This document shows, one piece after another, positions 43,090 to 63,344 of a stretch of DNA of 64,000 bases. The notes under the pieces were generated by a model. It did not search any database and was not told where the DNA came from. It saw nothing but the letters and a program-made list of their open reading frames with translations. The translations under genes were made by a program, and so were the position numbers. This DNA comes from Pyrenula massariospora (Eukaryota > Ascomycota > Eurotiomycetes > Pyrenulales > Pyrenulaceae), in assembly GCA_021030905.1 (NCBI GenBank), contig JAGFMI010000010.1:992001-1056000 (forward strand), written 5' to 3'. Positions within the stretch are counted from its first letter, which is position 1. The number at the start of each line of letters is the position of its first letter.

Positions 43090-43812
43090 CGGGAGGACGT
43101 CAGCTGGGGAGATGACGGACGAATTGAGCACTGGGAGGGTATGTTTCTTTTCTACACCATATTTCTCTTTTTTGCACACGTTTTCTTGGGTGGCTCGTCT
43201 CTTTGCATTTTCGGCGGATGGCATATCTTGAGCGTATTTTATCATTGATGTTGGAAACCTATCTCATCCTTCTCCACTTTTGCATATATTTCGAAATTTT
43301 CTTTCTACTGGCGGTACTTTGCGTTATATTTGCATTTGCACAGCGTGCGCTATAGCGATAGACTAGCGCCATAGCAGAAAACTGTCTATGCGAACCAGGC
43401 TTGTGACAAAATTCACGATCCTGTAATGAAGACGGGGTAGGAAGTTTACATCAGTAGTTTCTTCTTCGAACAATCCTCTCCTCAAATAGTGCCGTTTTCT
43501 TTTTGAGAAATTTCCATGTTCAGCCCCTCTTGGAAGTCTTCATCTGCTCTTACCTAACTACATACTCTATGAGCTTTACGACGGTGCGGTCATAGCCCTG
43601 TTTCACGAGTGCAGCGATCGATTCGAGCCTCACTAGCCACAACCCCGAGACGTTAATGGAGGTAAAGAATAAACAGCTAACGTACGCCGCCGTCCACTAG
43701 CATTCCCGACCCGAACTCTCGGTCAACCATTGCTCACGAGTGCACAAAAATGTGACTGCACTGTGCATAACAGCGGACAGTCGAAGCTAGATATCAGAAA
43801 TTACGACGCATC

Positions 43813-43937
43813 CAATCATCAGTCGGCGCGGGCATATTCAATCATCAGTCCGGCGGGCATATCTATCAATCCGGCGGGTGTATAAAATCATCAGTTCCGA
43901 ACGGGCGTACCTAATTGTCAGTCCGGCAAGCGTCATT
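43813..43937. repeat. degenerate tandem repeat, about five 23-28-bp units
   Basis: Units share a core like AATCATCAGTCCGGCGGGC; copies begin near 43813, 43839, 43863, 43885 and 43912 with drift in length and sequence. It is non-coding. Confidence 0.7.
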
Positions 43938-44236
43938 GCTCGCTGCCAGATGCGCTACGACTCCTGCTACCAAGCCTCGGATAGCACTCAAAGCCGGACC
44001 GGCGCGGCACGGGCATAAGATGAGCTACGTGGACGAAGCTTTGGCGTACATGGCATTTCAGCATTGAGCGAGCGGCGTGTGAGTAAATAGCGCATAACGG
44101 CCGGGATGGATCGCATGTCGCCCGAGCAGGATTCTCGGGTATGGAGTAAGAGATGCTGCCTTGTAGGAATAATGCGATGTGGTACAACGTATAACGTCTG
44201 GACGTTGATTTTACCTTGAGCATCCGATACCATGGC

Positions 44237-44310
44237 GCGGAGCTGGATGGTCGAGCGAGCTTGAACTCCGACACCCTGACACGGAGCTGGATTGTTGGAC
44301 AAGCTGACGA
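44237..44310. repeat. imperfect direct repeat
   Basis: Two adjacent units built on CGGAGCTGGAT followed by an AAGCT-like end, near 44239 and 44282. Function unknown. Confidence 0.5.
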
Positions 44311-47300
44311 CGCTCCGGGGACTAGAAATCTGCCTCGGAGAAAAGTTAGCTGTTAGACCAATAACCCGCCGAATTGATTGTTCTAGAACCTGGTTAGATG
44401 ATAGAGCGAATTACATTTGAACAAGAATTCCCAAAACCCAGATGCTCCTGCATCGGAAGGAAGATTAATGGCGCGTTTTCCCATTTCGGTGGCTGGGCTG
44501 GTAGGGCTGACCCGTATAAGTACACGTAGTCACAGGGGTAGATGCATAATCCGAAACATGAGCAATAGGCAAGTAGGTCTTGCGAGATCTGATAAGCCTA
44601 TGGTAGGATTGATTGACGATCTTAAATTTCCATGTCGCTTGATGCAGTCCGCAATTTTTTTGGGGCCGTGCTTGCGTATCCCTGCTAGAGCAGAAGCCAA
44701 CGTGGGGGCTCCCCTTGAGGCAACGAGGGTTTCGGCACGAGACTGAGATACGCAATGTAGGTACGCAATGTAGCCCGAGGTAGCTACTTGAGCGATGAGG
44801 ATGGATGAGAAGTGACGATGTATGTATTGACGGAGTAGGGACATATCGCAAGAAGTCGACGGATCAGAAATGTTAGAACGATGTTTAGTCAGGGATTAGT
44901 AACGCTAATCAGGATCAAGACTATCGATTTAGAGCGAGATGATCTACTCAAACCATGACTTTAGAAGCTCTTGATGTGTGAAATTAAGTTTAGTTGCAGT
45001 TGCGGAAAGGCCAACTGGTGGCGCCAAACGTTCCAACTCGTGTTCTAACCCAAGTCCATGCACTCGGGAATTGTAGGTGCAGCGAAACAATTCTGGGTGG
45101 GATATCGTGACGACATGGATAATTGCTTGAAAGTGGGGTAGTGCGTTAACAAGGGTTTGATAAGGGGCGATCTACAATGCGAGGCCGCCATGGTTGCTGA
45201 TTCGCATTCTTTGATGAGAACGGCAAGACCAAGTTTGACCTCACGTGGGAGCACCAGCGCTATAATGAAGATTGAGGAGATCCGACAGGGGTACGAAGGA
45301 AATGGTCCCCGAGCCGCGTGGTGTTCTTGGGGGCCGCTCTGGCACATCCACATTTTTCGTTGCCCGTTGGTACTAAGTTGAATAAATGTCGCTTTCGGGT
45401 AGTTGCGTCGAAAATTTGGGTCACTTAGCTAGTGGAGCTAGAATCTCTGCAAGAGTCGCCCGAACCAGATGGCTTGAAATGGGGCGGTCTTGTGGGGAGA
45501 GACATAATAGCAGGAGTGGGACGTTCGATAATGAAGATATCTACAGTTGAGCGTCGATGCTGCAGACCTCGTACAAACCTATCTTCCTCGTACACTCGGA
45601 TATTTTAGGCTGAGCGAAACAGCGTAAGATGGATTGTAGTGACAGAGGTACGTGTTTGAAGGGGGGTCACTGCGTTAACAACGAGTCCATCGACAGCGGG
45701 GCCATCGACAGCGAGTGCATTGAGAGCCGAGGTCTTCTTGATCCCGGGAATTTTGAGAAGTCTGGATGGTACTGGTCGTCATATCCTTCCTCGATAGAGG
45801 CATCGAGAGCAATTCCATCGACAGCCTGACTTTCTCTGGTTATTAGGCTTGGATCCGAGGCGAAAGTCGTACTCATCACGTTGCATGAAGTCAACACACC
45901 AGAGAACAACATTAACTTATCTGGTAACCGCCCATGCGTTTGGAATAGTGTCCTTCCTCTTTTTGATGTGTTAAACAATTCGCAACATGAACGGAACGGC
46001 AACGGTAGTTTTTTGTTTGTGAAAGAAAAAGCTAACAAGGGGAGAAAGGTCTTTTGATATGAAATGTCTGAGGTGTCTAGCCTTCTACGAGGTATAACTT
46101 ATGCATTCTTAGATCGCCATTGTGTGCAAAATTAGAATGCCCAAACGTGGACGTTCTGAAGATGTAAGTTCCATGCTTTTGTTCTCATCCGTTTCTCACA
46201 TCGCTTGTTTTGATGGAGAATATTCTCTTACGTATATATTGCTAACATGCTATATTGATGGATTAATTCCAGGCTACCGTTTATCGTTCTGAGCGTTCCT
46301 CCGCCTTCCGTTTCCTTTGACACTTTCAAGAAATATCATACATCGTGACAGAATGTCGAAGATAGATGACACATGCTTACATCCAGTCGTGATAAATGGC
46401 AATTGGTCAGACGAGTAGTGCCCAGGGCTCAATCCACGACGGTAACATGATTTACTTGCCGCCGCGTGATCTAGAGCAGAGATTCCATACCAGGATGGTC
46501 AAGGTCTTGCATCGAACTTACGCGATGCCTTTAATTGTGGAATTGACACTGAGATCTTATGGGTGTGAGAGGTCCCGAATGATTTCCATTAATTACCAAA
46601 GCTCAAAAGCATCGGCAGTACCTTCCCGGTAACACGTTTACAGCCTGCCTCTCTCTCCAACTCTCAAGCATTTATGCCGAATTCGTAGTGTTCGCTCTAC
46701 CTGTTCCGAGCACGCACGATGTTCGCCTCTGTGACCACGCATAAATTCTTCGTTCGACCAGAATTCGGCGCTGGTAGCTTTTATCTCCCTCTGCTTTGAC
46801 ACAACTACCTGCAAGTGCAGCATTTCCAAAGTGGGATCGCGCATGTCTCCAATGGTGTAATCCTCATTTACTTCCGCACTCTAGTCTATGGAGTACTTTT
46901 AAAAGATGCGTACTGTCATGACAGACTTTGAAAAGATCGTCTTGCTATGGTTACATGCCTATTAACCTTTGTTGGATCTTCTGTAACGTTGGTTATTAGT
47001 GCATACATTTCAGAGCTGGCCGAGCAATTCTCCTATGAGAACTGACCGTGTATGTAAAACACTATGGGGCAGTGGAGGCCGCTAAAATTTGATAAGCCAG
47101 TGACCAAAGTACAAAACGGGAAAGTACTTGAATCCATCCAGACGCTTATCCCAATCACGCTGAGTAAGCACCAGTGAGGCATTCCAATCATTCGATAAGG
47201 CCGCCGAAGGGCGTGACCATGATAGTAGTATTTGATCAATTGAAGTGCTAGCCAAGCCACAGGGCGTATCCAAGGGCGCTCTGATGGGGCGCTAAGAGGG

Positions 47301-48159
47301 CCATGAGTGGCGTTTCTGTGTTCGGAGCGCGCACCCAGGAAGGAATAGCCTAAATTTCAGAGGGTCATTACCTGCTCATCCTGTAAATCTTAGTCTAGAA
47401 CAACAATCTCTATCCTGTCAACCTGCAGCGCACTGCTAAAGTACTATAACACCTTACTGCGCGAAAGAATGACGACCCAAGCTGGCTCCGTAAGTCTCAA
47501 CACTAATAGTCAACGCCGCATGAGATGCATGGATAGTATTCCTAATAATTAGACCTAATGAAACAACCTCACAGTAAAGGATTTCTAGGAAATGGGTTGT
47601 CGAGAGGGACCCCCATGTTGTTCGATAGCAATGACCGTGGTCTTAGCGTTCATAAATTTTGACGAGGTACTTGATCATAAGCCTGGAAAGCAAAATTGAT
47701 GACAATGTTTCCTCGTATCATTACCGTTGGAGGTTTTGTATTCCAGTGTAACTTTGTCATTTTTCAAATTCTTTTCTCTGTATGACTAGATTGTAATTGT
47801 AGCGTCCAGAATCCCTGCTTTGAAGTCGCGTCAATTTAGGATGGTACTGGACTTACGAACAGTGACGTATCTTGAGATTCTCCGAATTTCATTCTAAATT
47901 TCCTAGTCGCTTTCTCAGCGCTCGGAGTATGTCAGCAATAGATTATCTTGCTTTGAAACCGACAGCGTTGCGTCACTTTCTTCTGTATTGTCTAGATCCG
48001 TCACTTTTGGCATGCCTACTCGGCCGCACAGCAGGTCCGGTCTGATACTCAACATCTTAGGGCTCCTTGAATGTTCATTCTTGACTAGTAGTATCGTCAT
48101 AATTTGAGAAGCTGGAATTTTTCGCATAATGCTTGTGCGCTCGGACGATTAATCTCTTC

Positions 48160-49175
48160 ATGATGGATCAAGGACCGAACCTGCTTGCTGACGAAGAGCG
48201 CCCCTTCCTTGACGAGAATGGTCCCGGTCCAAAGAGAAGGCGCCTAAACTGGACAACGATCATTATAAGTACTGCTTTGTCCATTTGTACTTTTACAATC
48301 GGCTACTTCTATAACGACCAGTGCCGGGATTTAAACACCACGTGTAACAGATTTACTTCTGAGTTTGGTACCACATTCTGCGTCGAAGAACTTTCCTTTT
48401 GTTTCAAGCTAACATCGAAAGATTCGCCCATAACTGAAGACCTAGCAATCAAGTACACCTCGGTGACTTATAATGGTTCCCTACGCAAGAAAACACCTTA
48501 CCGTCAATCTTATGGATCAGAAGTCGATGAGGCATGGAGACAGCTCGGCACGGATTGTAAGCTTCATGACGTCTTTGACATTTAAAAATGCTAATGAACA
48601 CTGCAGATAGAACCATTCTAGTCCCTGAGGAAGATGCGCAACGATATGGTCTTGCTCCTGGTCAGGTCAAGAGAAGACTGACGGCCGGTGGTGGATTTCC
48701 GGCATACGTCGAAATTTTCCATCACCTGCACTGCCTTGTCAGATACTCCTAAGTCGAGCCACCAGACCAAAGCTAAGAATAAATAGGACACGATTAGAAA
48801 AGCAACTTACTACAACGCCGAGTACTACAAAGCAGAAGGTAAAGGGCCTTTTCATAATAAAGGCGATGAGCTTGAAAACCATGTCAGTATGTTAAACAAT
48901 GCTCTGGATCCTTTGTAGTTGAAATATTGATTCTAAAGTGAGTAGGTCATTGTATAGACATACTTAGACAACATTTGATGTGCACCGCGGATCTCGGCGT
49001 CCTAGGTCAATGGTGGGTTAAAGACGTTGGCCCCGTTGTTGACTTCAATACACGACACAAGTGCAAGAATTTTGAGAACATCCGGCAGTGGGGCGAGCGT
49101 AATCAGTTTTTCCCTACGGATCAAGATTTGGTACATTTCCGCGAAGGAGATACAATTCTACCAGAGTTTCCGTAG
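48160..49175 (+). CDS. UstYa-family (DUF3328) oxidase-like membrane protein 1
   Basis: Four exons (48160-48556, 48607-48737, 48787-48886, 48946-49175) in phase give 285 aa; introns are 50, 49 and 59 nt. A basic PKRRRLNW segment precedes one N-terminal membrane helix (about 31-51). The luminal part carries the family's paired motifs: HHLHC (H171, H174, C175) followed by IRKATYYNAE, and HVSHC (H208, H211, C212) followed by IDILRQHLMC. Both motifs are completed only by splicing, which supports the model. UstYa proteins oxidatively cyclise ribosomal or non-ribosomal peptides in several mycotoxin pathways and probably use a metal held by the His/Cys pairs. It lies near a second UstYa gene and a tiny secreted-peptide gene. 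Tandem ATGs begin it; either may be used. Confidence 0.88.
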
Positions 49176-49698
49176 AGGTGCATATAGCGGGACAGTATTG
49201 CAATAGATTGCACAGTCAAGGATACGGCTGTTAATGTTTTAAGACTTCCAATAGAAAGTGAAAGAAACACGTGATGGTGAGGGGTAATGGGGTTCCGTAT
49301 AAAAAAGGCGCGAATCACATCTTAGAATCGATTTATGACTGACCCAGACATAGTGAAGACTGTTCTACGACCGATTGAAAATGACCGCATCTGAGAATAC
49401 AGAGACACCTTCCATCTTCACGGCGGAAAAGACCAGAATCATGCGAATGTATACGCATCTTCAGGGTGTTTAACGAAAGTATGCCATAACATATCTTCTA
49501 CAATCTTTCAAGTTGAACAGCCTTCTTCCAACAGACCATCCGCCAACGGCTCCTTAGCTTCGGAAAGAACAAGTCCCCTCAGTCTCAACTCGTACCATAT
49601 CATAACCTTGATAACAATAATATCGGCACAGATTTGAGAATTTGCCAACATATAGTAACTCATTGCACGAGAGGTCAGACTTTCATCAACCACAACCA
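49176..49698. other. intergenic 523 bp, convergent
   Basis: Lies between the 3' ends of UstYa-like gene 1 (plus) and the short peptide gene (minus). Nothing else is seen. Confidence 0.5.
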
Positions 49699-49889
49699 TC
49701 AGGGTGGCACGACGTAGTAGCTGTCATTACCCGCGGCCTTGAAATTATTAGTATGATGAGTTCGCAACAATATCCAAGCCCAAAACGTACGACATCTTCA
49801 AATTCCAAATCGCGAGCTTCCAAAACATCCGGCGGTGCAGCGTACACCGACCAAGCTAGAAGAGGGAGGAGATAAAGGAAGGCCAACAT
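49699..49889 (-). CDS. very short secreted peptide, candidate precursor for the UstYa locus
   Basis: Two exons (49889-49791 and 49737-49699) flank a 53-nt intron with a strong GTACGT donor, an ACTAAT branch point and a CAAG acceptor; both sides are in phase and give 45 aa. The start context is good (CACAATG), and TATTTAA lies about 95-100 bp upstream on the same strand. Residues 1-17 are a clear signal peptide (MLAFLYLLPLLAWSVYA). A short acidic leader with DLEFEDV follows, and the peptide ends in a Tyr-Tyr-Val-Val-Pro-Pro tail right at the stop. Known dikaritin cores are also Tyr-containing and rich in Val/Ile/Pro, but those precursors usually have several KR-flanked repeats, which are absent here. 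It could instead be an unrelated small secreted peptide. Without splicing the frame would encode 67 aa with another tail. Confidence 0.5.
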
Positions 49890-50777
49890 TGTGAATTCTT
49901 AGAAAGCAGTGGTTCTGTTAAAGTTCTGGAGAGACTGAGTGAGTCGATGTAAGTCTGAGCAACAGAGGAGATGCTCGTCTGTTAAATACAGCTGCGTGGC
50001 AAGCTTGTCTTCGAACCCCTGTGAGTCGAACATTACATCATTGGGCAATGACAAACCTCATACTCGTTTCAAATGAACTTAATCCTACTGAGTACTTCAT
50101 TTTGCTGTCACCGAATCAAATAATATGTAGCACGTCATATGGTTGTAGTTAAGGTTAAGATCACCTCTCGAGAACGACGCGAAGGAGCGATACGAAAGAA
50201 CTATACCAGGCGTTGATGTGAGGGAACAGCACTAAGGAATGACAAGATGAAACGACACTAAGAAACGATATGAGTAAAAGAGACTAAGGAAGGACATGAA
50301 GCAATAAAAAGTCCATAACAGTTACCACACCCTCAACATGGACCCGCAGAGATTGTTCCATTTCGGCATAGAAACAATGGGTAATCAATTTTTCGGTGGT
50401 GGCACCATTTTGGAATGACCGTAAGAGCTATGCTTAGTGTGATCTTGGAACGAGCTAATGCAGTTTCCAGATCCTTCGTTATGCTTCTAGCATTCATTTC
50501 TCTTTACGGAAAGATACCATAAGCAGACATGGAGCACCAGATGCGATAGTAGTAAGACCCAGTCCATGGTCGTATCATTGGCTTTATAGTTCACCATGCC
50601 GTCATGATGACGAATATCAGCTAGTCCAAAGAATGATCACTTTACATGTTGGAGCTCTCTCGATTGTGTTGAAAGGTGCTGAGATACATCCCACCGAGCC
50701 TGAAGTTTGCGCAGACACAGAATTTGCTACAAGAAAACCTCTGACGGAGCCTGTCATATACTCATTAACTTCCGCGA
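49890..50777. promoter_or_regulatory. divergent promoter of the short peptide gene and UstYa-like gene 2
   Basis: 888 bp between two starts that face away from each other. It holds TATTTAA on the minus strand (49982-49988) and a 26-bp-period repeat array at 50172-50305. Confidence 0.45.
50172..50305. repeat. 26-bp-period tandem array in the divergent promoter
   Basis: ACTAAG begins at 50231, 50257 and 50283, exactly 26 bp apart. AACGAC occurs at 50173 and 50251, three periods apart. About five degenerate units built on ACTAAGRAACGAYATGA are visible. It may be a regulatory array or an old minisatellite. Confidence 0.7.
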
Positions 50778-51666
50778 ATGGACAAATGGTCGCAGAGATA
50801 TCTTGGTTACCGGAGTCTTAGGGAAAATGGAGAAGACCTGCCCAAAAGGCACCATAATTTCTGGAGAGGCAATCTTGACCGGTGTGTATCATTCTGGCGA
50901 TGGTACCTGGCCTTGACCTTAATGTTCATCACTTTCGTTGTTGTGAGAACGGTCCTACCTCATGGTCAGGAAGAATTCATCATATCTAGTGAGAATTGAC
51001 TCTTTTCTCCTTTTTTGTCAGATATCTGACCCCGAAAGTCCCTAATGCTGCTCTACCTGTGGTGTTTCGCCCGAATCCGTCGTGGACTGGAACTGATCCA
51101 GACGTAAATCAACGATGGCATGGAGAGTTTAAGGACGGTAGCAAAAACTCAATCGCCATAGAGAATCCCTCCCGCTATGGTCTTAGACCAGGCGTTCCCA
51201 TACCAAACACCACATTCGAGAAATTTGGGTTGAGTATGTTCCATCAACTTCATTGCTTGGTATGTAATTGAAGCATTTCTTGAATCTTTTAAATCAGTCA
51301 TTTGTTCTTCGGACGAGAAAGATACACTACTATCAAGCTGCAGGCCGAGACTCTCAATATTTGCTAACATACTTGAGCCAGGCTGCTATTAGAGAACGAT
51401 TTTATGACCTGTCCTCAGGCCACTTAGAGGCCAGCACTTATTCACATATGCATATTGACCACTGCTTTGATTACATACGTCAAGGCATTCTATGCTCTGG
51501 AGATTTAACCCCGGAGTGGGCGGATGTCTCCGTGAATGGTACTAGGATTGGGACAGATGGCTGGAACATCGCACATAAAACATGTAAAGACCTTTCAGCA
51601 ATCGAAAACTTCTTACGGAAATATCGGTGGAGACCTGAACGATGGTCGGACGGTAACAATCTTTAA
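50778..51666 (+). CDS. UstYa-family (DUF3328) oxidase-like membrane protein 2
   Basis: The best model has three exons (50778-50988, 51039-51259, 51298-51666) and 266 aa. One membrane helix lies at about 43-60 (YLALTLMFITFVVVRTVL). The luminal part reads FRPNPSWTGTD, YGLRPGVPIPN, then MFHQLHCL (H139, H142, C143) and HIDHCFDYIRQGILC (H196, H199, C200), the two hallmark HxxHC motifs. The first intron is 50 nt (GTGAGA, CTGAC branch, AAAG acceptor); an earlier CAG would make a 33-nt intron and break frame. The second is only 38 nt (GTATGT...CAG). The likely role is oxidative modification of a peptide in the secretory pathway. It is divergent from the short secreted-peptide gene and about 1.6 kb downstream of UstYa-like gene 1. 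Sequence drift from gene 1 shows they are not recent duplicates. Confidence 0.82.
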
Positions 51667-52160
51667 AAGTTCCATTGTTCAGTTCATTGACTTAGACAAA
51701 TATAAACCGAATAGCCAGAGAGACAATTTTAAACAATTCCTCCGAGCCCCAGAAAGAGGACATATGATGAATTGCCTATGTCAGTATCCACAAGTTTGAC
51801 GAAATGTGAATGTAATAGAGTCATGTCAATGCAAGAAGCTATAACCAATGTCCATCCTGCTCATATCGGCAGACATGATTCCTAGCGTGTTGGGCAAATT
51901 TTCTCGAGATTTAGGCCTCGAGAACGATGATTCACAACATATCAGCTCAAGGAAAGCTGTTTGATGATCAGTTCTCCCTTTTTGTGCCATCTCCTTCACT
52001 TTACAGCACTCTTATTCTGAGCTTTAAGATCCAGCGACATCGAACTCTTCCTGGCTGGCATGATTTCTATCTGTTGTCGAGTAATTGATGAGAATAGTGT
52101 AGTAGATACGGTCGCATTCAGTCCCGCTTTTCTTTTCAGGGCAGCTCTTTTAAAGAGATA
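51667..52160. other. intergenic 494 bp, convergent
   Basis: Between UstYa-like gene 2 (plus) and the third HxxHC gene (minus). Nothing else is seen. Confidence 0.5.
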
Positions 52161-52910
52161 CTACCCGCCTTTAGTGATACGAGTGCAGGTACCAGCCCCG
52201 AATTCTACAGCAGCCCGTGCTCCTTGACGATGGCTCTGCGAAAGAATGACCGTATTGCAATGCATCACATGAGCCGGATCCAGGATTCTCGAGTTGACGT
52301 AGACTGCTTCTGCGCCGGCCTTCAGCTCGTTCAGTGCCTTGATCGCGAGTCTCCAAGAATAAAGGCAATGGGCGACATGCCACTTCTCCGACGTCCACAG
52401 CACCGGCGGATCCATTTCGGAGAGGGTCTCTATCAGCTCGTCCTGAGCAACCGATGAAGAAAAATTCGCATCCAAGTACCATGGATACGTTGCTGTCCCT
52501 CCCAATGAAGCCAACGAAGAGTTTGTAGACATGGCCTCCTCGGCCATTTGTGCATCGTAACATCGCCTCGGTACCCAGTTATTCATCCCAATGTCGAGTA
52601 TACAGCCGTTGGCGATGGCTTCTGTTATCTTATGGCCATTGCAGGATTGTATTGAATTATGGTCGGCATAAGCTTCTGCTGCAATAGCACCAAGCTGATG
52701 AGTCCCTGTCACTTCCAGATTATATCGCATAACAATTCCCGTGAATATCAATACAATAGGAACCATGACCAGGCATACTGTGCAGCTTCGGGAGTCATGT
52801 CTTGACTTCATCGCGTTCTCTAATTCTGAATACTTGTTGTTCTGCTGTTGTGGCGGACTCGGGGCAGAGTTCGACGTTTGTACACTCTTTTCCATGTCTC
52901 TGTTAGACAT
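52161..52910 (-). CDS. single-pass membrane protein with two HxxHC motifs (divergent UstYa-like)
   Basis: A single-exon 249-aa protein with a Ser/Gln-rich cytosolic start, one membrane helix (about 43-62, CTVCLVMVPIVLIFTGIV) and a luminal remainder. The luminal part has HVAHCLYSW (H178, H181, C182) and HVMHC (H214, H217, C218), 36 residues apart, close to the spacing in UstYa-like protein 1. It lacks the YLRQ-like context after the second motif and has extra Cys residues (for example NGCILDIG and RRCYDAQ), so it is a separate family that may share the same metal-binding idea. I know similar proteins occur widely in Pezizomycotina but cannot name a characterised one. Its position beside two true UstYa genes suggests shared work on one substrate; this is inference. 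Confidence 0.72.
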   Translation of the reverse strand: MSNRDMEKSVQTSNSAPSPPQQQNNKYSELENAMKSRHDSRSCTVCLVMVPIVLIFTGIVMRYNLEVTGTHQLGAIAAEAYADHNSIQSCNGHKITEAIANGCILDIGMNNWVPRRCYDAQMAEEAMSTNSSLASLGGTATYPWYLDANFSSSVAQDELIETLSEMDPPVLWTSEKWHVAHCLYSWRLAIKALNELKAGAEAVYVNSRILDPAHVMHCNTVILSQSHRQGARAAVEFGAGTCTRITKGG

Positions 52911-54361
52911 TTGAAACCCTATGGCTCATAGTCTTCTTTCGTCTTCTCTAAACAATAAGTGATTAGCACAAGAGTAAGGATGTTTGTATCCCTGACGCAG
53001 GTGCAATTTCCTTAGGCCTATTGTAATCCAAGGACTCGAATATTATTTGATGAAATATTGCGGTATCCCAGAGTGTTTGTAACGCGCCAAACGGACGTCT
53101 ACACGTGATCAAAGAGCCTGGAGAAAGCCGCGAGGACATTCACCGCTGCTGAGCAAGCAAGAAAGATGTATGTAGCCTCTACCAATCAAGAACGATGACA
53201 GTTCACCTCAGTCTTTGTGATCTGGACAGGGTTCACGTGGGTCGGCAAGGGTGCCGGGCGAAAGCGGCTGGTAAGAGATTTTGACGAAGGATCTTCGTGA
53301 AGGATTTCGACTATTCAAGCAATACGTCCCGATACTATGGTCCCTGGGGTATTAAATTTTAGCGGCCGCCACTGACCCATCGTGTTTGAAACACACATAC
53401 ATCATTTTTGTGAGGTCATTGCGCCGTCTCTGTACTGCATAAACTCAATTGTCAACATGAATGGGGCTTACTAAAATTTATCTTGGTTTGACTAAAGTTA
53501 GAAGGCTTAATAAGATAAGCTCCTGACGTCATACTGGCTGATAGTCTTAGCCTCGGAGGCTCAATGGTCCGAACTACTCATGAAGAGCCATGCCATGGAT
53601 ACAGCCTTTGATCGGCCTTCCTGAAGATTACCCGTCTTTCCAGGTCTATGATGGTGAGGGAAATCCTTCTGAGCGGGAACATGCGTCAATGCTGTGTTTT
53701 AGGAGGAATTGCGGGGTAGAGAGAACAGCACTAAAATCTGAAATTCGTCCTTAAGCTTCATGCTAGTGTATCAAACTTCTTTCTCGATTGTCTCTAGTCT
53801 ATGCCTGCAAAAGCCTTCCGCTCTTGTCGATGGGTTCGAGATGCAAAAGTACAGCCGCTTAGAGCTACGAATGCTACCTTGGCTATTTCGAAAGTAATTT
53901 TGGCGTGACCATGAGTGTATCAAGGCCGTACATCTTTAGCTCGTGGTCTTTACAATTACAAATCATGCTCAGTACCTATATTGTATTTGCTGCGTTGCAA
54001 TCAATTCTTCAGCTGATGATTTTGACTTCATTGATTTTGAATTATCGAACTGGGTTTCGTATCTCCCACCTTCTCTTCATACGGAAATCCATTGAATTTG
54101 GAAGTCACTCACCTAGAAGAAAGTGTTCGCGGCCTGCGTTCCAGAGAAATTTTACCTTGTTGCTGTGGGCCTGAGCATTCATAATCTCGAAAGGAAAAAC
54201 GTTGTTCCGCGGAAACTAATTCGTTGAAGCATCCCACATGGTCCCCATGTTGTACCATCCACTTATCTATGCCGGGTAAGAACAAAAAAAGCCTGAGGTT
54301 TTGTCGGAGCTTCGATGTTAATTCATCTCAGGGTTATGGTCATGCTCCTCCAACTGACTAG
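52911..54361. other. intergenic 1.45 kb
   Basis: Promoter of the HxxHC gene and the upstream side of the methyltransferase. An open frame at 53905-54174 is hydrophobic but lacks conserved features and splice support, so it is not called. Confidence 0.45.
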
Positions 54362-54538
54362 TGGCGAAACGAGAAAGTCTTTAGAATCAGTACGTCCCGT
54401 GTCTCATTGCGACGTTCGACCAAGATACAATATGTCTCAAAAGTATCTCGCAGAAAATTTTCCAATTTGGTGAATAAGCTCTCAACCCTGTCGAAGTTTG
54501 AAGTCTCGACTCTAATGTGATTTTTTTCACGAAGCGAG

Positions 54539-55180
54539 GTCCCAGAGCATATATTTACCAAGATATATGAACAACGTATATGGGGTAGAGGAGATCATGA
54601 GGGAGACATGTTCTCTGGGCCAGGTAGTGCCGAGGATGCTGTTGTGAAGCCGTACATCAGTGCAATTCGTTCATTTCTTGATCGCTTCGAAAAACCGCGA
54701 AATGTTGCAGACCTTGGATGCGGGGATTTCAATGTTGGATCTCAGATCAGAAATGCGACTGACGGATATATTGCGTGTGACATCGCGCCGAATCTCAACA
54801 AGCGCAACCGACTTCGCTTTGAAAACATGGACGTGGACTTCCGAGATCTCGATATCATCTCTCAACAATTGCCTCGCGCTGATGTCGCCTTTGTGCGACA
54901 AGTTTTACAGCACCTCAGCAACGAGCAAATTCTAAGTATCATTCCAAAACTCGCGGTATACCAATGGGTTGTGGTGACGGAGCACCTGCCACGACGGTCT
55001 AATTTCACACCCAACGTCGACATCTCACCAGGTGCAACTACTCGGCTCAGAATTCGGTCAGGAGTCGTGCTTGACGAGCCTCCCTTCTCACTTAACTTTT
55101 CCTCTTCCGAAATTCTTTGTGACGTCTTTCCGCGCGAAATCGGTGTAATAAGGACCGTAGCATATCAGCTTGGGAGGTGA
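54539..55180 (+). CDS. class I SAM-dependent methyltransferase, 5' end uncertain
   Basis: The last exon (54539-55180) begins VPEHIFTKIYEQRIWG and then MFSGPGS, before the SAM-binding motif VADLGCGDFNVG and the acidic end of beta-2 (ACDIAP). VAFVRQVLQHLSNEQI and VVVTEHLP complete a Rossmann methyltransferase core, about 213 codons. An upstream in-frame exon, about 54362-54502 (ending LSTLSKFE), joins in phase 0 across a 36-nt intron that would remove the TGA at 54515. No ATG is found in that exon, so a further 5' exon is missing or the gene is 5'-damaged. Acceptor chemistry (N, O or C) cannot be read from sequence. Within the peptide locus it could tailor the product, for example by N-methylation, but it may be independent. 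Confidence 0.75.
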   Translation, partial: VPEHIFTKIYEQRIWGRGDHEGDMFSGPGSAEDAVVKPYISAIRSFLDRFEKPRNVADLGCGDFNVGSQIRNATDGYIACDIAPNLNKRNRLRFENMDVDFRDLDIISQQLPRADVAFVRQVLQHLSNEQILSIIPKLAVYQWVVVTEHLPRRSNFTPNVDISPGATTRLRIRSGVVLDEPPFSLNFSSSEILCDVFPREIGVIRTVAYQLGR

Positions 55181-56478
55181 TAACAAGTGTTATTTTTGCG
55201 ACGGTATTTATCGTGGTGGATGATTCTGCTTGTAATGTTATCTTTGATAATATAATTCAATGTAAATCTTCCTCAGTAGCGATCTCGACCAGCTCTGACC
55301 AGGTCTCTACATTTACCGGCTCTTCGTCCACGAAAACTTAGACAACACCGCAGATCCCCTCTGTTTGGGATTGCTGCAAAAGATTCGAAAGCATAAACAT
55401 TGTGATTCCACTCCCAACGATCTTGACGAGAAATAAGAAAATTTGTGCCATGCTGTAGCACTATTGAGACGAGATCGGCTGTAGGGGTTGACTTCCCCTT
55501 GTAGCAGATCGCGTGGGGGCGCAGCTTAGGATTGTCACATGATTTTCCACGCTCATATAGAGTAAGGTGATGCACTCCACCTACTAGAGAAGATGCTCTT
55601 GAACAACCGAGGCAAACAAGTCGATTGGAAGGTGTTCAGTCGCTGGTGAGACGAAGTCCTGATCACGAAAATGACCTTCTTTAATAGTGACGCTCAAGCC
55701 GCTGGTGTGAGTGAGCTACTCGGTGTTTGGTTGCGACGACTGACATGGTTATTCACGATCCTTGGGTGATTCATGTAGATTTAACCGAGACTGGTTGCTA
55801 GAAGGCATAGTGGGTCCAGTTATCCAGTGTTGGCAATCACTGGGCAAACATTCCAACGCGGCCACGATTAATAGTATTCAACCTCAAATCCCTGTACAAC
55901 AGTAACGACCCTCAAGGTGTTTTCCACACAGGAAGGAACATGGAGAAATCAAAATCGACTGCTTCCGGTCTTCGCAATTTAGACTTAAGAGGAATGCGCA
56001 TAGATAGTACGGTCGTTCTTGGTGTGATATCCTTTTTTAAGGGAAGTGGTACGACCCTTGGATGAGAAGAGGCGAACGTTTCCAAGGGTTGAAGCTGATC
56101 AACGAAGAATTAAGGGTGGTGGGTTGAAGCTGTTTCCTACTTCATACTTCAGCATTAATTCATTTGTTCTTGCACCAACTTGCACGTCTAGCGACGTGCA
56201 AGGGTAAAAGGTGGAAGCAGCTGAAGCAGCTGCTATGAGACTAGAAGCATGTGCTGAAATTGATGCTGGGATATAATATTGATTGAGCAGTATGTCGATA
56301 TTTACACCGATTAAAGAAATCTTACCGGATTCTTAATCGTTCGAAGCAAGACCGTCCCATATTCAACGACCACAACGCCGATGAAGTAGAGAATTCCGTA
56401 GCAGCTTTGCGACTTTCTCTTGTCTGTAAGCATCGAGGTATCCTTAGTTGAGGCCCTGACCGAGTGAACTCGATAAAA
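55181..56478. other. intergenic 1.3 kb, convergent
   Basis: Between the methyltransferase (plus) and protoglobin (minus) 3' ends. No supported gene; a TGAAGCAGC duplication near 56220 is the only pattern seen. Confidence 0.45.
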
Positions 56479-57258
56479 TCACATATTCGAAAGCTTGACG
56501 ACCAAAGCCCCTATAATTGCGCCAAGAAGGACTATGATCAAAGCATCTATGTTAGCGAAGCTCTTCCTAGGAATGTGGTGACTGGTCATCCTAGGGTCTG
56601 CTTTTGGTATGCTTCCAACGTCCCAATCCGCTGTATAGTGCCGCGCAAAAAGGTCGTTTTGGATCCACAACAGCTTATTCCAAGCCATGACGGCTTCCGC
56701 TTTTCTCTCTGGGGTCCATCCTTCAGCGGTGGAGGAGAGGATTGCGCTTGCGACAGCTTCTTCAACAAAGCCAAGTAGGAGACCCATATGCATATACTCA
56801 ACGCGCAACGAAGGTCTCTTTGCGCGATGAGCGAATCCTGGATGAGCTGGATCTCCCGTATGCATGACGCCAACATTGTCGAGATATATCCAGATAGGTG
56901 AGCTCGGAGACCAGTCTGTGGTGGAAATAGTCTTGACGAGGTACGACTTGAGGAAGTCTTTGCGGAACTTGACATTTGGATGATCAAGCGTGAGATCTGT
57001 CACTTTGGAGTCACCGCCGTCATATTTTGCGTCGCCATTATGTACTTGTTGCCGTGGAGCGAATGCTTTAGCAGTAATGTCGAAGGATAAGAGTTTGATG
57101 TAGACGGCATCCAGCAAGGTTGGTAGGAGCGGTTTTAAGATGGTAAGACTTGAGTTTATCGCTTGGCCAGAGGAAGAAGGGTCGAAGCCAAGAAAGCTTT
57201 GCTCGTACGCTATCCTACTCGGGACAGTGGAGAGTGAAGACGGAGGGATTCGCTGCAT
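56479..57258 (-). CDS. protoglobin-domain protein with C-terminal membrane anchor
   Basis: A single-exon 259-aa protein. From about residue 12 to 210 it follows the protoglobin/globin-sensor pattern: SRIAYEQSFLGFDPSS, LKPLLPTLLDAVYIKLLSFD, FRKDFLKSYLVK, WIYLDNVGVMHTG, LRVEYMHMGLLLGFVEEAV and WNKLLWIQNDLFARHY. His133 in the MHTG motif is the best candidate for the proximal haem ligand, with His157 nearby. The C-terminus ends in a hydrophobic helix (about 236-256, IDALIIVLLGAIIGALVV), so the protein is probably tail-anchored with the globin facing the cytosol. Protoglobins bind O2, CO or NO; fungal versions are poorly studied. It is divergent from AIM18. A role for haem/O2 chemistry in the adjacent peptide locus is possible but unproven. 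Confidence 0.82.
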   Translation of the reverse strand: MQRIPPSSLSTVPSRIAYEQSFLGFDPSSSGQAINSSLTILKPLLPTLLDAVYIKLLSFDITAKAFAPRQQVHNGDAKYDGGDSKVTDLTLDHPNVKFRKDFLKSYLVKTISTTDWSPSSPIWIYLDNVGVMHTGDPAHPGFAHRAKRPSLRVEYMHMGLLLGFVEEAVASAILSSTAEGWTPERKAEAVMAWNKLLWIQNDLFARHYTADWDVGSIPKADPRMTSHHIPRKSFANIDALIIVLLGAIIGALVVKLSNM

Positions 57259-58300
57259 TCCGCTTCTATGAATTAGGGTTTGAAGTGAGGATGAAGGTAA
57301 GTTTGAACAGGAAAGAGGGATTAGCGGTTGTTAGAATGTCTGATTGGATTCTTGGGAATTTTATCTCCGGATAGATATTGAAGATAGTGAGTAGTTGTCG
57401 AAGGTGGTGAGGTAATGTCCAAAGTTGGTGAGGTGATGTGAGGAGTGATGAGTAGAGGTCAACAGTCATGAGCAATGAAGAGGTATTTTAAAGAATTGAC
57501 CCGGGAAGAAGATACTGAATGCGGTGGACGTTGAATCCTTACCATGTAATACTCTATGATCGGGCGAGAAACTTAAGCGAATCGTACTTGAATCGTGAAT
57601 CTTGTCACATGGCCGTGTCTCCAAGTGTACAAAGTAGTGTTGCTATCTGTTTGTTGCTGGTAGTATTACCGCGGCTAGGGTCTGTCATGGCCGGAAGAAG
57701 TCGGCTGCGACCATCTCCTCGGAGATGAGCAACTGAAAACAAGCGTGCCGTAGCTGCAAAGCAATATGTCTATGTATAGTCGGAGGAGCCTCTGAAAGTA
57801 CTGATGCCGAATCATATTGCAATCACCGGCATCGCACCATACTTACAAAGGATGACTTGTCTTCAACGAGCGTGGTCATGTTGTATCGGAGATTCTGGTG
57901 TTGGTGCTAAACGAAACACGCGACGCAGCGGATGGGACCGCGCTGCCTCCATTCGCATAGTTTCAATTTCACACACGTGTCTCTCGGGCATTCGAGGTTT
58001 TCTGATCGTGATTGCCTTCCCGCTGACATGATATTCTCGCTTAGTCGAGTGCCGGAAAAGATGTCCAGACACAGACTTTCACGGTCCTGAGACAGAAGAA
58101 CAATTCGCCGACAATTAGCCGGGCCACCACGCCGACAAGGTAAGCTCCCGCAGCTCCATCACATCGTCATAGTTCGACCAGTCTCCGCGCAGGTACGAAG
58201 GTATAGGGTATGTGAGACAGCGCCCTTACAGACAGAGCGAACTCGCAGCAGCGTGCTCTCTTTTGCCCACTTTTCACCTGCGTATTCAATCCACACGTTT
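57259..58300. promoter_or_regulatory. divergent region of protoglobin gene and AIM18
   Basis: 1.04 kb between two divergent starts; it marks the return from accessory to core genes. I see no TATA box or strong operator. Confidence 0.4.
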
Positions 58301-59524
58301 ATGATGGCCTTGAAAGCGCCGCGGACCTGCTCTCTGAAAATACGTCAATCAATCACTCCTGTACCTGTTCCATGTGCGCAAAGGAGCCCAAAACCCAACA
58401 GATGTCCTCACCAACTACCTTATTCGATCCAGAACCGCCGTTACGCTACCCGCACGATCACACGTACCGTCTATACGCCCATCTTTGATCGACCGCGCGC
58501 ACGCCCTATAACCTCTCCGAAGCGTGTAAGCCCTGAGATTGAAAAGGCCTGGAAACGCTTCAAGTTCGCTGGTGTTGGCTTGTTATTGACAACTCTGTCT
58601 TTGTTCGGTGTGTTGTACTTTGATATCTTCGACGTCCCGTTAGATGGAAAGAAGAAACCGCCGAAGCCATCAATACAAAGCGATGCGCCGCCTGTGGCTA
58701 CGGGGGCATATACGAAAGCTCAAGGGGAGGAGAACGACGTTGTTGAGACTGGAACATCCACCATCCCCACCTTTCCTCGACACATCAAGCTCGGTAGCCT
58801 TGACGCGCCGAAAGATGCGAGTTTCGTTGACACGGGAGAGCAGGAATATCAGCTGATGGGCCTCGGCATAAGAACGGTCTCTTTCCTCGGTATACAAGTC
58901 TACGTGGTAGGACTATATATCGCAGTGCCGGACATTGAGCGATTGCAACACCACCTGGTCAGGACTATCAATGATGTCGCCACGGCGCTTGTACCCGGCG
59001 AAAAGGCGCGATTGAAGGAATCGTTACTGGATCCTGAGCAGGGAGAGGTGATCTGGGGCAATATACTTAGAGACGCAGGCATCAGAACTGCCATACGGAT
59101 TGTACCAACACGGAACACCGACTTTCAGCATCTGCGTGACGGCTGGGTTCGAGGCATTACGTCGGGGGTGCAGAGGGCTTCTGTAAGCACAACAGGCGGC
59201 GATTTCTCAGATGACGCTTTCGGAGAAGCGATGACGGTTTTTAAGGGCATGTGGGGTGGCGGCGCAAGGAAGAGCGTGCCAAAAGGAGAGACGCTGCTTT
59301 TGACAAGAGATGCTAAGGGAACATTGGACGCATGGGTAACAGACAAGAAGGGAGCGACAAGTAAGATCGGGCAAGTCCAAGACGAGAGGATCTCAAGGCT
59401 GATATGGTTGGGCTATCTGGCTGGGAAGACCGTCAGCAGTGAAGGGGCGAGAAAGAGCGTTGTTGATGGGATCATGGACTACGTAGAAAGACCCGCGGGA
59501 GCAATTGCAACCCAGGTGGTCTAA
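58301..59524 (+). CDS. AIM18: AIM18-type mitochondrial chalcone-isomerase-like protein
   Basis: A single exon of 407 aa from the ATG at 58301 (a second ATG follows directly). The first about 60 residues are basic and Ser/Arg-rich (IQNRRYATRTITRTVYTP), as in a mitochondrial presequence. One membrane helix is at about 89-106 (KFAGVGLLLTTLSLFGVL). The rest matches the chalcone-isomerase-like fold of AIM18: LMGLGIRTVSFLGIQVYVVG, IRIVPTRNTDFQHLRDGWVR, VFKGMWGGGARKSVPKGE and ISRLIWLGYLAGKTVSSEGA. In yeast this is an inner-membrane protein whose loss alters mitochondrial inheritance; it is a haem-binding, non-catalytic relative of plant chalcone isomerase. It is a conserved core gene flanking the accessory region. 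Confidence 0.92.
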   Translation: MMALKAPRTCSLKIRQSITPVPVPCAQRSPKPNRCPHQLPYSIQNRRYATRTITRTVYTPIFDRPRARPITSPKRVSPEIEKAWKRFKFAGVGLLLTTLSLFGVLYFDIFDVPLDGKKKPPKPSIQSDAPPVATGAYTKAQGEENDVVETGTSTIPTFPRHIKLGSLDAPKDASFVDTGEQEYQLMGLGIRTVSFLGIQVYVVGLYIAVPDIERLQHHLVRTINDVATALVPGEKARLKESLLDPEQGEVIWGNILRDAGIRTAIRIVPTRNTDFQHLRDGWVRGITSGVQRASVSTTGGDFSDDAFGEAMTVFKGMWGGGARKSVPKGETLLLTRDAKGTLDAWVTDKKGATSKIGQVQDERISRLIWLGYLAGKTVSSEGARKSVVDGIMDYVERPAGAIATQVV

Positions 59525-61065
59525 TTTGGACTGTACAGAAGATTCCAATGGATCCACATGCTTGTTCTCACGTCCTATTATCTTGGACTGATCCTTTCTC
59601 ACAGCAATTATAACACCGCACAACACCACGATACCCAAGATGCAGTCTTCAAAAAAGAAATCCATCCCATGATATTGGTGTGGCAACGACCTCAAAGCAA
59701 ATCCCCCCTTCATATCATTATAGTTCAGCTCCCGCCACCACCTACAGGTCTACGCGGCAAACCCGTTCCTCACCTCTCTCCGAACAACCTAAGCACAACC
59801 CCAGCGACGTCTCACTCGCCTCAACACTCTCGGCATGCCCGGCAATCCTTTTGCCCTTGGATCCCTCCTTTCGTTCCCCCGGACTTTGTCTCAATCACTT
59901 CCATCCTCCCAGTCTCAGCTCATCGTCCACATCTCATCATCTGATTTCTGTCCTTCTACCCACGCTCACTCTTCAGTATACTTCTATCATCTGAACATAG
60001 TAGGTACACTCCTCTCTCCTAGCCCTATTGGTGCCTTCCGCCAACGCACGCCAATTCGACTCGTCTCGCTTCTTTCCAACTGATCGAAGCCCACCTGTAT
60101 TCATTCATTGGGATAAGACGGCCCTCGTCGCATGGGATCTCATAACGGCGGCCCTAAGTCACCAGGGTGAGCGTGGCAATTTCCCGAGATTTCATTGTGT
60201 TGCGGCGCGAAGACGGCGTTGGGTGAGTCCGGCTTGATCCAGCCGTGTGCAAAGGAGGAGACTATCCTTTGATCTGTGCGTGCTTTTTGAACGTTTGTGC
60301 AAAGGGATAAGCTGGAGAGGAGAGAGAAAAAATTGGAGCTAGGTGGGTATCAGAAATCGTGTCGTATCTACGTAATGCTCGCCGGGCTAGTAATTGGATG
60401 CGCTCCTGCTTGTGAATATGAAATCTAGTTTTGCGTGCTAGAAGACAAGGAGGGTAAGGAGAAACTTAGCAAAGGCAAAAGAGTGAAAGCAAAGCGTATG
60501 TGTACCGTAATATGCCCCGTCTATTCAAAACCCTAAGGTACCTATGTATGAACATAGCTAGGTAGTAAGCTAACCCTTTCACATCACGCCACGCCACGCC
60601 ACGCCATGCTATGCCATGCGCTGCTCTATCTCCCTCGCTGTGTGTAGCCGGAAAAGACAAGGACCGTGGTTTTGGACGGAAACACATTTTGTAGGAACAG
60701 GAACAGGGAGAGCAAAGGGAAAAGGCGAAAGGCTGGGTTGGTTCTTGAGGTTCGAGGAGGACAGGAGGCACGCTAGGCTCGATTGAATTGAATTGGATTG
60801 GATGGACGTCTGAGGCGGCATCTCGGGCGTGGTCAAGTATGATCAAACCCGTCTTTCTGCGTACCCGATTCGTGTGCACGTCTGGACCCGTGCAGTGCTT
60901 TTGCGGATGCCGTTCGTGAAATAGTAGTCTTTGACGAATCCAACAGTCTCTTTTTGCCTCCTTCCGTCAAGTTCACCGTGACTCAGAACCCTGGCCATCC
61001 TCTCCTTCAGCCTAGCATGATTGAGATCGACGTACCACAGCTGATTGCCCAGGTCACCAAGCCAG
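59525..61065. other. intergenic 1.5 kb, convergent
   Basis: Between AIM18 (plus) and the DnaJ gene (minus). It holds a CACGC pentamer run near 60586-60620. Open frames are short and unsupported. Confidence 0.45.
60586..60620. repeat. CACGC pentanucleotide microsatellite
   Basis: Four to five copies of CACGC decay into CATGC-like variants. Non-coding. Confidence 0.8.
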
Positions 61066-63344
61066 CTAGCCGAATCTGAACCCACCGGGCATACCTCCTC
61101 CCCCCATACCACCAAACGGCGACCCTCCCCCGCCCCCTCCACCGGTCGAGAATCTGAAGCCACCAGGCATTCCGCCCATCCCGCCGCCACCGGATCTCCC
61201 TCCACCCATACCGCCCATCATGTTGAACAGCATCTCGGGATCGATCTGCACACCGCCACCCATGCCGCCCATGCCGCCCATTCCTCCACCACCAAACATC
61301 TCCGCGGGATCCATCAGATCATCACCCCGATCGTACGCTTCTCTCTTGTTCTGATCACTGAGCACCTCATACGCCTCACCTAGATCCTTGAATCTCTCCT
61401 CTGCCTCCTTGTCTCCTGGGTTCTTATCCGGGTGCAACACAATCGCCAGTTTGCGGTATGCCTTCTTAATCTCGCCGTCAGACGCGTCCTTCTCCACGCC
61501 TAGGATCTTGTAGTAGTCCTTCCGCTTGCTCTTCTTGAGCTCCAACTCCGCATTCCGTATCTCTTTTTTCAGCGACGAATCACTAGGGTTCGCTTCAGCA
61601 AGTGCTTTGAGTTCCTTCACCGCAGCATCCCAATCACCAGATACACCCAGTGCATTAGCACGCGTTTTCCGTGCCTTCGTGTACGAGGGATCAAGTTTCA
61701 GTGCCGCATCACAGTCCTCTATTGCAAACTTGGAATCTTTTAACTTAAGGCGAGCTGCTGCACGGTTCTGGTAAAGTTTAGCGTTTGTGCCCTTATTTGC
61801 TGGGTCCACAGCAAGGGCCTGGGTGTAGAGATCAACAGCCTGGGCCATTCGCCCGGCCTTAAAGGCGGCGTTTCCATCTTCTTTGGCACGATCAAGACGC
61901 TGCACTATACGGAGATATTTGATTGCTGCCTTGAAATCAGGGTCATAGCTCAATGCCCGCCGGAAATGGTTGAGGGCCTTGTCGTTCTCGCCTTGGGCGT
62001 AGAAGGCACGGCCCCGAAGAACGAGGGCGTCTGGATCTGCATTGTTAGCACGTAGAAGGGACATGGCGATGTTTTGTGCCTCGCCAAGAGCATTGACATT
62101 CCCAAGTTTAAGGGCAGCTTCTCCGCGAAGGAGAGCCCAATACTTGGGTCGAGTGACACCTGTGCCAAGGTATTTGTCTGCTTGGTCGAGAGCATAGTTG
62201 ATCATTGAGCCAGAGCCGGTGGGCTTGGCAGCTTCTTCCTCGGCTTGTTTAAGGACTTTTTGCATACCGAGAGCCGATGACTTGTCTTTGGCAGTAGCGG
62301 GAGGGTCACGAATGCGGTCGTATGTCTCGAGAGCTTCTTGTGGGCGACCGAGGCCGGTGTATATGCGGGCGAGCCGGTGGAGAATCTTGGAATCGTTGGC
62401 TGATAGGGAGATAGCCCGGAGAGAATCTGATAACGCTGCATTGTAGTTACCAGCGCCCATGTAGGCTGCGCAGCGATTGTTCAGGTACGTTGGCGACGAA
62501 GGATCGGCATCGACAGCTACGATATTCTTAGCACCTTTATCCATGGTTGAAGGATCTTCAACTTACCTTTGGTGTATTCAGCAATTGCTCGGCTGTAATC
62601 CTGGGCCTTGAAGAATTTGTTGCCCGCAGCCTTGCACGCCTCTGCATCCACCGTTGGCTTTGGAGGAGCTTCATTTCGAGGGCTGGGAGGTATTCGATGT
62701 GGAGGAGGAGCGGGACTGACACCTTCATCACCTCCACGTTCGTCGTCTTCGTTGTTGGCGCCATTTACGCTGTTAGAGAAACTATTGCCATTGCTCTGCG
62801 TAGGTGAAGACGGGATCGAAGAAGAACTTCTGGATTCATCTCGATCATCCACATCCATCATATCGCCATCCTCATTTTCATGTGACATGGGGCCTACCCT
62901 AAGCCGCCCTTGCTGGTCAGACGGTCGGTAATTATTAAGCGGGTGTGTGTTCTGGTCTTTCTTCGGGGAGTTTTTTGCTTTTGGCTTGGGGTGTTTAGAT
63001 TTTTTGCCGGATAGATTCAACGGGCTTCTCATGAACGACAAAGTCGGCACCGCAGAAGTTGAAGGTTTTCGAGCAGGTTCGGGGGATTGGCGTGGTCCGT
63101 CCCGGTGCAGCCTCGAAGATCGGGGAGATTGTCTGTGGTGTGGGGGTACCGGTGAGGAGGGTGGAGGGAAGGAAGCGGACGATCGGATGGGGGGAGGCGA
63201 TGGAGGAGATCCTGAAGGCTGTGCGGCGGTGGAACTGCTGGTGTTGGATCGTGGTCTCTGGGAGAAATAATCGTCGTGGTCGTGGTCGGGTCCCCTGGAC
63301 TTTTCGTTCTTCTTCGATGGCCGATCCTTGCCCGCGGGAGCCAT
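61066..63344 (-). CDS. TPR-repeat DnaJ co-chaperone (DNAJC7/TPR2-like)
   Basis: Two exons (63344-62567 and 62516-61066) give 742 aa, with a 50-nt GTAAGT...TAG intron inside the first TPR (AIAEYTK / AVDADPSS). The N-terminal about 230 residues are basic, Ser/Pro-rich and disordered, with an acidic patch (MMDVDDRDE). About seven TPR-type helical pairs follow ([72 protein letters not shown]). The J domain (about 593-660) has the HPD triad at 621-623 (LHPDKNPGD) needed to stimulate Hsp70. A Gly/Met/Phe-rich tail ends the protein. The family links Hsp70 and Hsp90 during protein folding. The long disordered N-terminus is unusual next to animal DNAJC7. Confidence 0.93.

Follow-up and report, generated by a model that had tools for sequence, protein, structure and literature searches.

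Which product, if any, do six neighbouring genes at 48.2–57.3 kb of the present stretch of DNA make together? The stretch, hereafter the window, comprises 64,000 nucleotides (G000:C1:992001-1056000) of a 37.8-Mb genome in 33 contigs, which was judged fungal from its gene content. The six genes (Table 1) encode two UstYa proteins (UstYa1 and UstYa2), a third protein in which the HxxHC motif occurs twice, a tiny peptide predicted to be secreted, a class I methyltransferase and a protoglobin. On the sequence evidence we consider it moderately likely that the locus makes one small, dikaritin-like ribosomal peptide of the UstYa type from a single-core precursor, and that the third protein, for which the label HxxHC-2 was coined in this analysis, represents an unnamed UstYa-superfamily branch that serves loci for ribosomally synthesised and post-translationally modified peptides (RiPPs) with or without UstYa.

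The gene inventory of the first-pass annotation was borne out: Pfam returned UstYa twice, PF08242 and PF11563, both HxxHC motifs are present in the third protein, and the spliced frames are open. Both UstYa genes have a Pfam match (PF11807, DUF3328) over the cut-off, a transmembrane (TM) helix seen by eye and the signature HxxHC(x)nHxxHC, and the locus thereby holds the DUF3328 enzyme with two HxxHC motifs that defines the dikaritin class according to the accessible part of PMC12048977. UstYa1 has a single TM helix and, in the spliced model, the motifs HHLHC and HVSHC; Pfam UstYa matches its first exon (48160-48585, E 1.9e-6, 28.4 bits against a cut-off of 25), and the genome-wide match lies at G000:C1:1040229-1041100. 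The spliced UstYa2 model carries HQLHC and HIDHC, and the region 50993-51666 gave one match under the cut-off (E 0.0027) and one over it (E 2.7e-12), the last exon scoring 47.5 bits. The second intron of this model measures merely 38 nt, and a downstream AAAG acceptor, found by eye, offers a longer in-frame alternative. Because the genome holds 82 UstYa exon matches, or 42 loci when merged within 20 kb, an adjacent UstYa pair is ordinary here.

The candidate precursor gene sits between the two UstYa genes, in a gap of 1.6 kb. Its minus-strand open reading frame (ORF) at 49889, which we take to be the tiny secreted-peptide gene that had been listed without coordinates, encodes 67 amino acids when unspliced and begins with a signal-peptide-like stretch, scored by a crude measure only. 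Removal of a 53-nt intron (GTACGT, branch-point-like CTAAT, CAAG) leaves 45 amino acids ending in AAGNDSYYVVPP, and the modelled product consists of a putative signal peptide, a short acidic leader and one core ending in SYYVVPP, with no dibasic site. The first AG after the branch point is generally the preferred splice acceptor, and the acceptor of the model was chosen because it is the first after the branch-point-like site. The intron lies 16 codons past the crude cleavage site, inside the range of 4–17 found in five measured models from other loci. A repeat precursor was rejected for this locus, since none was found in the repeat scans: as had been noted, kexin-spaced cores are missing, no repeat-precursor ORF occurring in window 40001-60000, and the tandem arrays in 43000-58500, read by eye, are short and none encodes a protein of repeated cores with kexin sites. 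The window locus so lacks the repeated cores with kexin sites of the dikaritins, an absence that a one-core precursor would explain.

A strict scan of 43000-58500 recovered the precursor model together with one weaker model at 47137, and no precursor model was obtained from window 1-43000. The relaxed scan was too loose, giving 6 starts at 3 places in a 43-kb control, and it is therefore the strict scan and the adjacency to UstYa that carry weight; the relaxed-scan models at L032, L036, L043 and L028 were rejected by eye. When the 1.6-kb gap was dinucleotide-shuffled, a secreted two-exon model of at least the same score appeared in 25 of 2000 shuffles, so the chance of such a model in the gap is about 1%. 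In 12-kb shuffles the score was reached in 7 of 300, and any model at all appeared in 37 of 300.

Precursors beside UstYa genes elsewhere in the genome were sought at 16 of the 42 UstYa loci, the window included; this sample is non-random, having been chosen for multiple UstYa or HxxHC-2 genes, and one of its loci (C4) was examined in part only. Repeat precursors are present at five (C11, C30:230 kb, C28:1579 kb, C32:1135 kb and C28:1845 kb). The unit at C11 is VGYAYTTV, the ORF at C30:230 kb is clipped by the region edge, the repeat at C28:1579 kb is partly masked, and the units at C28:1845 kb mostly end in K-A-R, the N-terminus of that ORF lying outside the view. One-core candidates occur at seven loci (the window, C1:38 kb, C1:1268 kb, C18, C30:60 kb, C17 and C33) and a two-core candidate at C13. 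At the remaining three (C5:987 kb, C1:751 kb and C4) no precursor candidate was accepted, weak models at the latter two having been rejected by eye. The one-core scans required Tyr or Trp, and several models were read by eye. We propose from these models that similar short one-core precursors lie beside UstYa at six other places in the genome. At the eleven loci measured, the window among them and C33 and C13 outside the measurement, the precursor start lies 0.7–3.1 kb from the nearest UstYa match, some starts being approximate.

The third protein gave no family match in Pfam or NCBIfam and falls under the Pfam UstYa cut-off. Its motifs are HVAHC (residues 173-177) and HVMHC (209-213). Three protein queries, the window protein with 16 matches (E 0.01) and two others with 18 and 19 (E 0.001), together gave 19 HxxHC-2 genes at 11 loci in the genome. 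An alignment of 18 of these (A1; the gene at C1:43 kb was left out) keeps both motifs in 17 rows, the frame of the remaining row breaking ahead of the second motif. A single-sequence protein search found 1 match, and the family profile, run over a large protein collection, found 38. A second alignment (A4), made of the window protein, the single-sequence match and 32 of the 38 profile matches (six short ones of 112-173 amino acids being left out), shows two HxxHC motifs in every one of its 34 rows; the motif residues (four His, two Cys) and four additional Cys never vary. Judged by these sequence matches, HxxHC-2 is carried by at least five other fungal genera; the named sources are Pyrenula, Xylogone, Pseudogymnoascus, Chlorociboria and Talaromyces stipitatus, where the proteins are annotated as hypothetical.

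Weak Pfam UstYa matches were returned for 4 of the 18 A1 members (best E 3.3e-4), the commonest family match among them, and for 6 of the 34 A4 members (best E 8.9e-4; runner-up DUF3116 with 3 of 34, best E 0.17). When the A4 profile was compared with ten UstYa proteins, hhalign gave 92.7% across 127 columns (E 4.2e-7), and the control comparison with methyltransferases gave 0.1%; A1 gave 90.6% over 48 columns, and both HxxHC motifs are aligned. Because of the weak matches and the profile comparison, HxxHC-2 is assigned to the UstYa superfamily as a remote branch, under Pfam's reach and outside the Pfam UstYa family. No solved structures related to the UstYa or HxxHC-2 profiles were found.

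The association of HxxHC-2 with UstYa is not confined to the window, a further difference from the earlier reading. At six of the 11 HxxHC-2 loci a UstYa match is no more than 5 kb away; positions that close to one cover 1.26% of the genome (binomial p 1.8e-9, the loci being treated as independent). As a control for secondary-metabolism regions, P450 genes were taken (91 starts from 102 matches, second exons removed by hand, from a search that scored 92 of 262 candidates), and 2 of 82 P450 loci lie within 5 kb of UstYa; at 10 kb the comparison is 6/11 with 4/82 (Fisher p 1e-4). Repeat precursors adjoin five of the 11 HxxHC-2 loci, with dibasic sites at C11, C30, C28:1579 kb and C2 and without them at C22. 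Two of these five, C2 and C22, have no nearby UstYa, and their units are without Tyr or Trp. At C2:413-432 kb (L025:7211, L026:981-1268) the dibasic repeat precursor is accompanied by four HxxHC-2 genes and a gene that by eye resembles a Zn2Cys6 regulator, and this could be a complete RiPP locus with HxxHC-2 as its only HxxHC family. At C22:1.296-1.300 Mb (L030:3201-7089) a secreted repeat protein of QQTVRFKTEVDEADKLKAR-type units, which mostly end in K-A-R, adjoins one HxxHC-2 gene and one gene of a further family, HxxHC-3. The mix noted at first as unfamiliar therefore looks, at sequence level, like a repeatedly occurring branch of UstYa-type machinery for RiPPs. The HxxHC-2 loci at C8, C10 and C29 have no nearby UstYa and no repeat precursor that was accepted; C29 carries low-complexity repeat ORFs. 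Short signal-peptide-like ORFs were seen on the minus strand near the UstYa-less HxxHC-2 genes at C10 (L028:9470) and C8 (L027:2767).

HxxHC-3 proteins have about 350–370 amino acids, with two HxxHC motifs and a long segment ahead of the TM helix. Each of the three genes has a repeat precursor no more than 10 kb away, and two of them are near UstYa; all three give a weak Pfam UstYa match (best E 3.8e-4), and hhalign against UstYa gave 87%. It is conceivable, if on balance doubtful, that HxxHC-2 and HxxHC-3 form an unrecognised branch of dicopper oxidases defining a fungal RiPP class of its own, which at C2 and C22:1.297 Mb would act on secreted repeat precursors without UstYa, and at the window together with UstYa on a one-core precursor free of dibasic sites. 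We hold this less firmly than we otherwise would because the precursor at C22 has no dibasic sites.

The mechanism we propose for the window locus is as follows. The 45-residue precursor would enter the endoplasmic reticulum through its signal peptide, where UstYa1, UstYa2 and HxxHC-2, as predicted type-II membrane oxidases, would face the lumen. By homology to CctR, the HxxHC...HxxHC site of each oxidase should bind two copper ions. PMC12435403 describes CctR as a dimer associated with membranes that holds two copper ions at its HxxHC(x)nHxxHC motif and works with O2, and DUF3328 proteins as dicopper enzymes with this motif. With O2 the oxidases would cross-link or oxidise the Tyr-rich core SYYVVPP, and a Tyr-Tyr-Val-Val core might suit a Tyr-phenol ether or a Tyr-Tyr link. 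As the precursor has no dibasic site and no peptidase gene was seen in the locus, general secretory or vacuolar proteases are proposed to cut off the leader. The methyltransferase may, as a guess, methylate the released product in the cytosol, and the protoglobin would be a mere neighbour.

Several observations weigh against the single-core peptide. The acceptor used is AAG; the next AG (CAG, 17 nt further) gives 103 amino acids, later ones give 74 and 67, and these and the unspliced reading have different C-termini. A search with the precursor as query, limited to the window genome, returned only the precursor itself. The window precursor splices in phase 0, the six other one-core models all in phase 1. 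The strict scan recovers only two of those six (L024 and L033; L040-L043 were left out of it) and also models precursors at L030 and L031 that were taken for false. Finally, neither a peptidase nor a transporter was seen by eye among the locus ORFs, as had been stated, and the ABC transporter and regulator found by Pfam lie about 5 kb and 9 kb from UstYa1.

In an alternative reading, this is a UstYa-type peptide locus of which the tiny gene is not the substrate, the precursor lying elsewhere or the oxidases acting on another secreted peptide or a small metabolite; CctR, for one, acts on a non-ribosomal peptide (PMC12435403, as far as accessible). The dependence on one acceptor, the deviating intron phase, the lack of another match in the genome, the frequency of such models among the shuffles (about 1% for the gap, 2% for 12 kb), and the three of 16 UstYa loci with no accepted precursor all agree with it. 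Set against these are the position of the tiny gene between two UstYa genes, precursor candidates at 0.7–3.1 kb from UstYa at ten other loci, and the window ORFs, among which, as first reported, no non-ribosomal peptide synthetase (NRPS) or polyketide synthase (PKS) was seen by eye. We regard it as unlikely.

The unity of the six-gene set was not supported. PF11563 has one match in the genome (E 4e-29, the window gene), and recurrence of a protoglobin beside other UstYa loci was not observed; its C-terminus is, by eye, a hydrophobic tail. A role as partner of the copper enzymes in oxygen or redox chemistry, though attractive, was rejected because the gene is single-copy and no other locus has one, and the protoglobin is probably a bystander outside the pathway, of a kind (single-domain S globins) that fungi are known to carry (PMC3287990, accessible part). 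The methyltransferase matches PF08242 over 54521-55180 right at the cut-off (E 8.7e-7), and no second methyltransferase match was found in the window genome at E 1. Relatives number 2426 at E 0.001; among the 120 matches listed, four are named bacterial and three fungal (a Xylariaceae sp. and two Nemania, 50–54% identity). A tree of the 120 places it, with a support of 0.92, in a clade of ten tips that also includes the three fungal sequences and six unnamed ones; the tips nearest to it by branch length are unnamed. It is a possible member of the locus. What gained support of the earlier reading is a ribosomal-peptide locus on HxxHC proteins, with which four or five of the six genes agree: a plausible precursor lies between the UstYa genes, and the second HxxHC family is statistically linked to UstYa and adjoins repeat precursors.

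It is quite improbable, in our estimate, that there is no pathway at all and that unrelated neighbours have come together in an AT-rich, gene-poor stretch that collects lineage-specific genes. The guanine-plus-cytosine (GC) content does fall to 0.43–0.48 across 46-58 kb, coinciding with the extent of the locus, long gaps separate the genes, which occupy both strands, and the protoglobin and methyltransferase, with one genome match each, have no partners at other UstYa loci; against this, HxxHC-2 lies near UstYa far more often than P450 genes do and also stands beside repeat precursors. Decay of a multi-core precursor to one core in a silent pathway, to which the typically multi-core dikaritin precursors (PMC9233826, PMC12048977, accessible parts) and the want of a dibasic site and of a peptidase might point, is very improbable given that all four enzyme genes are open with their motifs kept and that candidates of this short, single-core kind were seen at six other places with UstYa, which suggests a type rather than decay.

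With dikaritins (ustiloxin, phomopsin and asperipin-2a types) and epichloecyclins the proposed one-core locus shares UstYa/DUF3328 beside a secreted precursor, here a predicted one, with a Tyr core and, as some of those loci do, it may include a methyltransferase. It differs in its one core, the lack of dibasic-spaced repeats, the second, unnamed HxxHC family, and in that no tyrosinase, peptidase or transporter was seen. Plant burpitide (BURP) cyclases differ in fold, kingdom and precursor arrangement. The likeness to them would consist in copper, four His and side-chain cross-links on ribosomal peptides (comparison in PMC12435403, accessible part). Like the window proteins, the CctR/DUF3328 copper enzymes of the same source are anchored in the membrane and carry a pair of HxxHC motifs close to the C-terminus; UstYa1 and UstYa2 belong to the Pfam UstYa family, whereas HxxHC-2 is under that cut-off and has its own conserved block, C-G-x-S/T...GC...W.P..CY, before the motifs. 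Also similar are the lichen clans R1 and R2, which have UstY homologues and no repeat precursor found, R1 also with methyltransferases; unlike the window, R1 has a tyrosinase and a sulfatase and R2 acetyltransferases, and the accessible text mentions no second HxxHC family and offers a single core as one possibility (PMC12048977). In the open-access literature searched, as far as its text was accessible, no account of fungal RiPP loci with a second HxxHC family was found, and no demonstrated single-core dikaritin precursor.

Mining rules for fungal RiPPs seek UstY-like proteins and repeats with dibasic sites (PMC12048977, PMC11109268, accessible parts). The window locus would not satisfy the repeat rule, C2 would not satisfy that for UstY, and C22 would satisfy neither; RiPP loci that at present escape notice would come to light in a search with an HxxHC-2 profile combined with one for single-core precursors. 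Should HxxHC-2 and HxxHC-3 define a class of their own, they would provide an enzyme for some of the kexin-repeat precursors without a DUF3328 neighbour, which make up 78% of repeat precursors as against 22% with one (PMC7329392, accessible part).

Table 1. Coordinates of the locus genes, of flanking genes and of HxxHC-3 genes (positions in the window unless a region handle is given).
Feature	Position	Strand	Structure	Basis or remark
UstYa gene 1	48160..49175	+	exons 48160-48556, 48607-48737, 48787-48886, 48946-49175; 285 aa	Pfam, splice model
Candidate single-core precursor gene	49699..49889	-	exon 1 49889-49791, intron 49790-49738, exon 2 49737-49699; 45 aa	MLAFLYLLPLLAWSVYA/APPDVLEARDLEFEDVAAGNDSYYVVPP
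UstYa gene 2	50778..51666	+	exons 50778-50988, 51039-51259, 51298-51666	Pfam, splice model
HxxHC-2 protein	52161..52895	-	244 aa, intronless; TM, then Cys-rich luminal domain	family alignments, hhalign
Class I S-adenosylmethionine (SAM) methyltransferase	54432..55180	+	exons 54432-54469, 54535-55180; 227 aa	PF08242, splice model
Protoglobin / single-domain S globin	56479..57258	-		PF11563
HET domain gene	33385-34170			flanks region
Zn2Cys6 regulator	37061-39376	-		Pfam
ABC transporter	41485-43089	+		Pfam
Chalcone-isomerase-like gene	58091-59524			flanks region
DnaJ/TPR gene	61066-62562			flanks region
HxxHC-3 gene	L020:7349-8458			one of three copies found
HxxHC-3 gene	L030:5980-7089			one of three copies found
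HxxHC-3 gene	L031:14-1060			one of three copies found

Among the flanking genes, the Zn2Cys6 regulator and the ABC transporter could serve the locus, with nothing linking them to it. The chalcone-isomerase-like and DnaJ/TPR genes look like ordinary neighbours of the protoglobin. GC contents of 0.45–0.47 also occur in other stretches of the window, for example at 31-32 and 34-37 kb.

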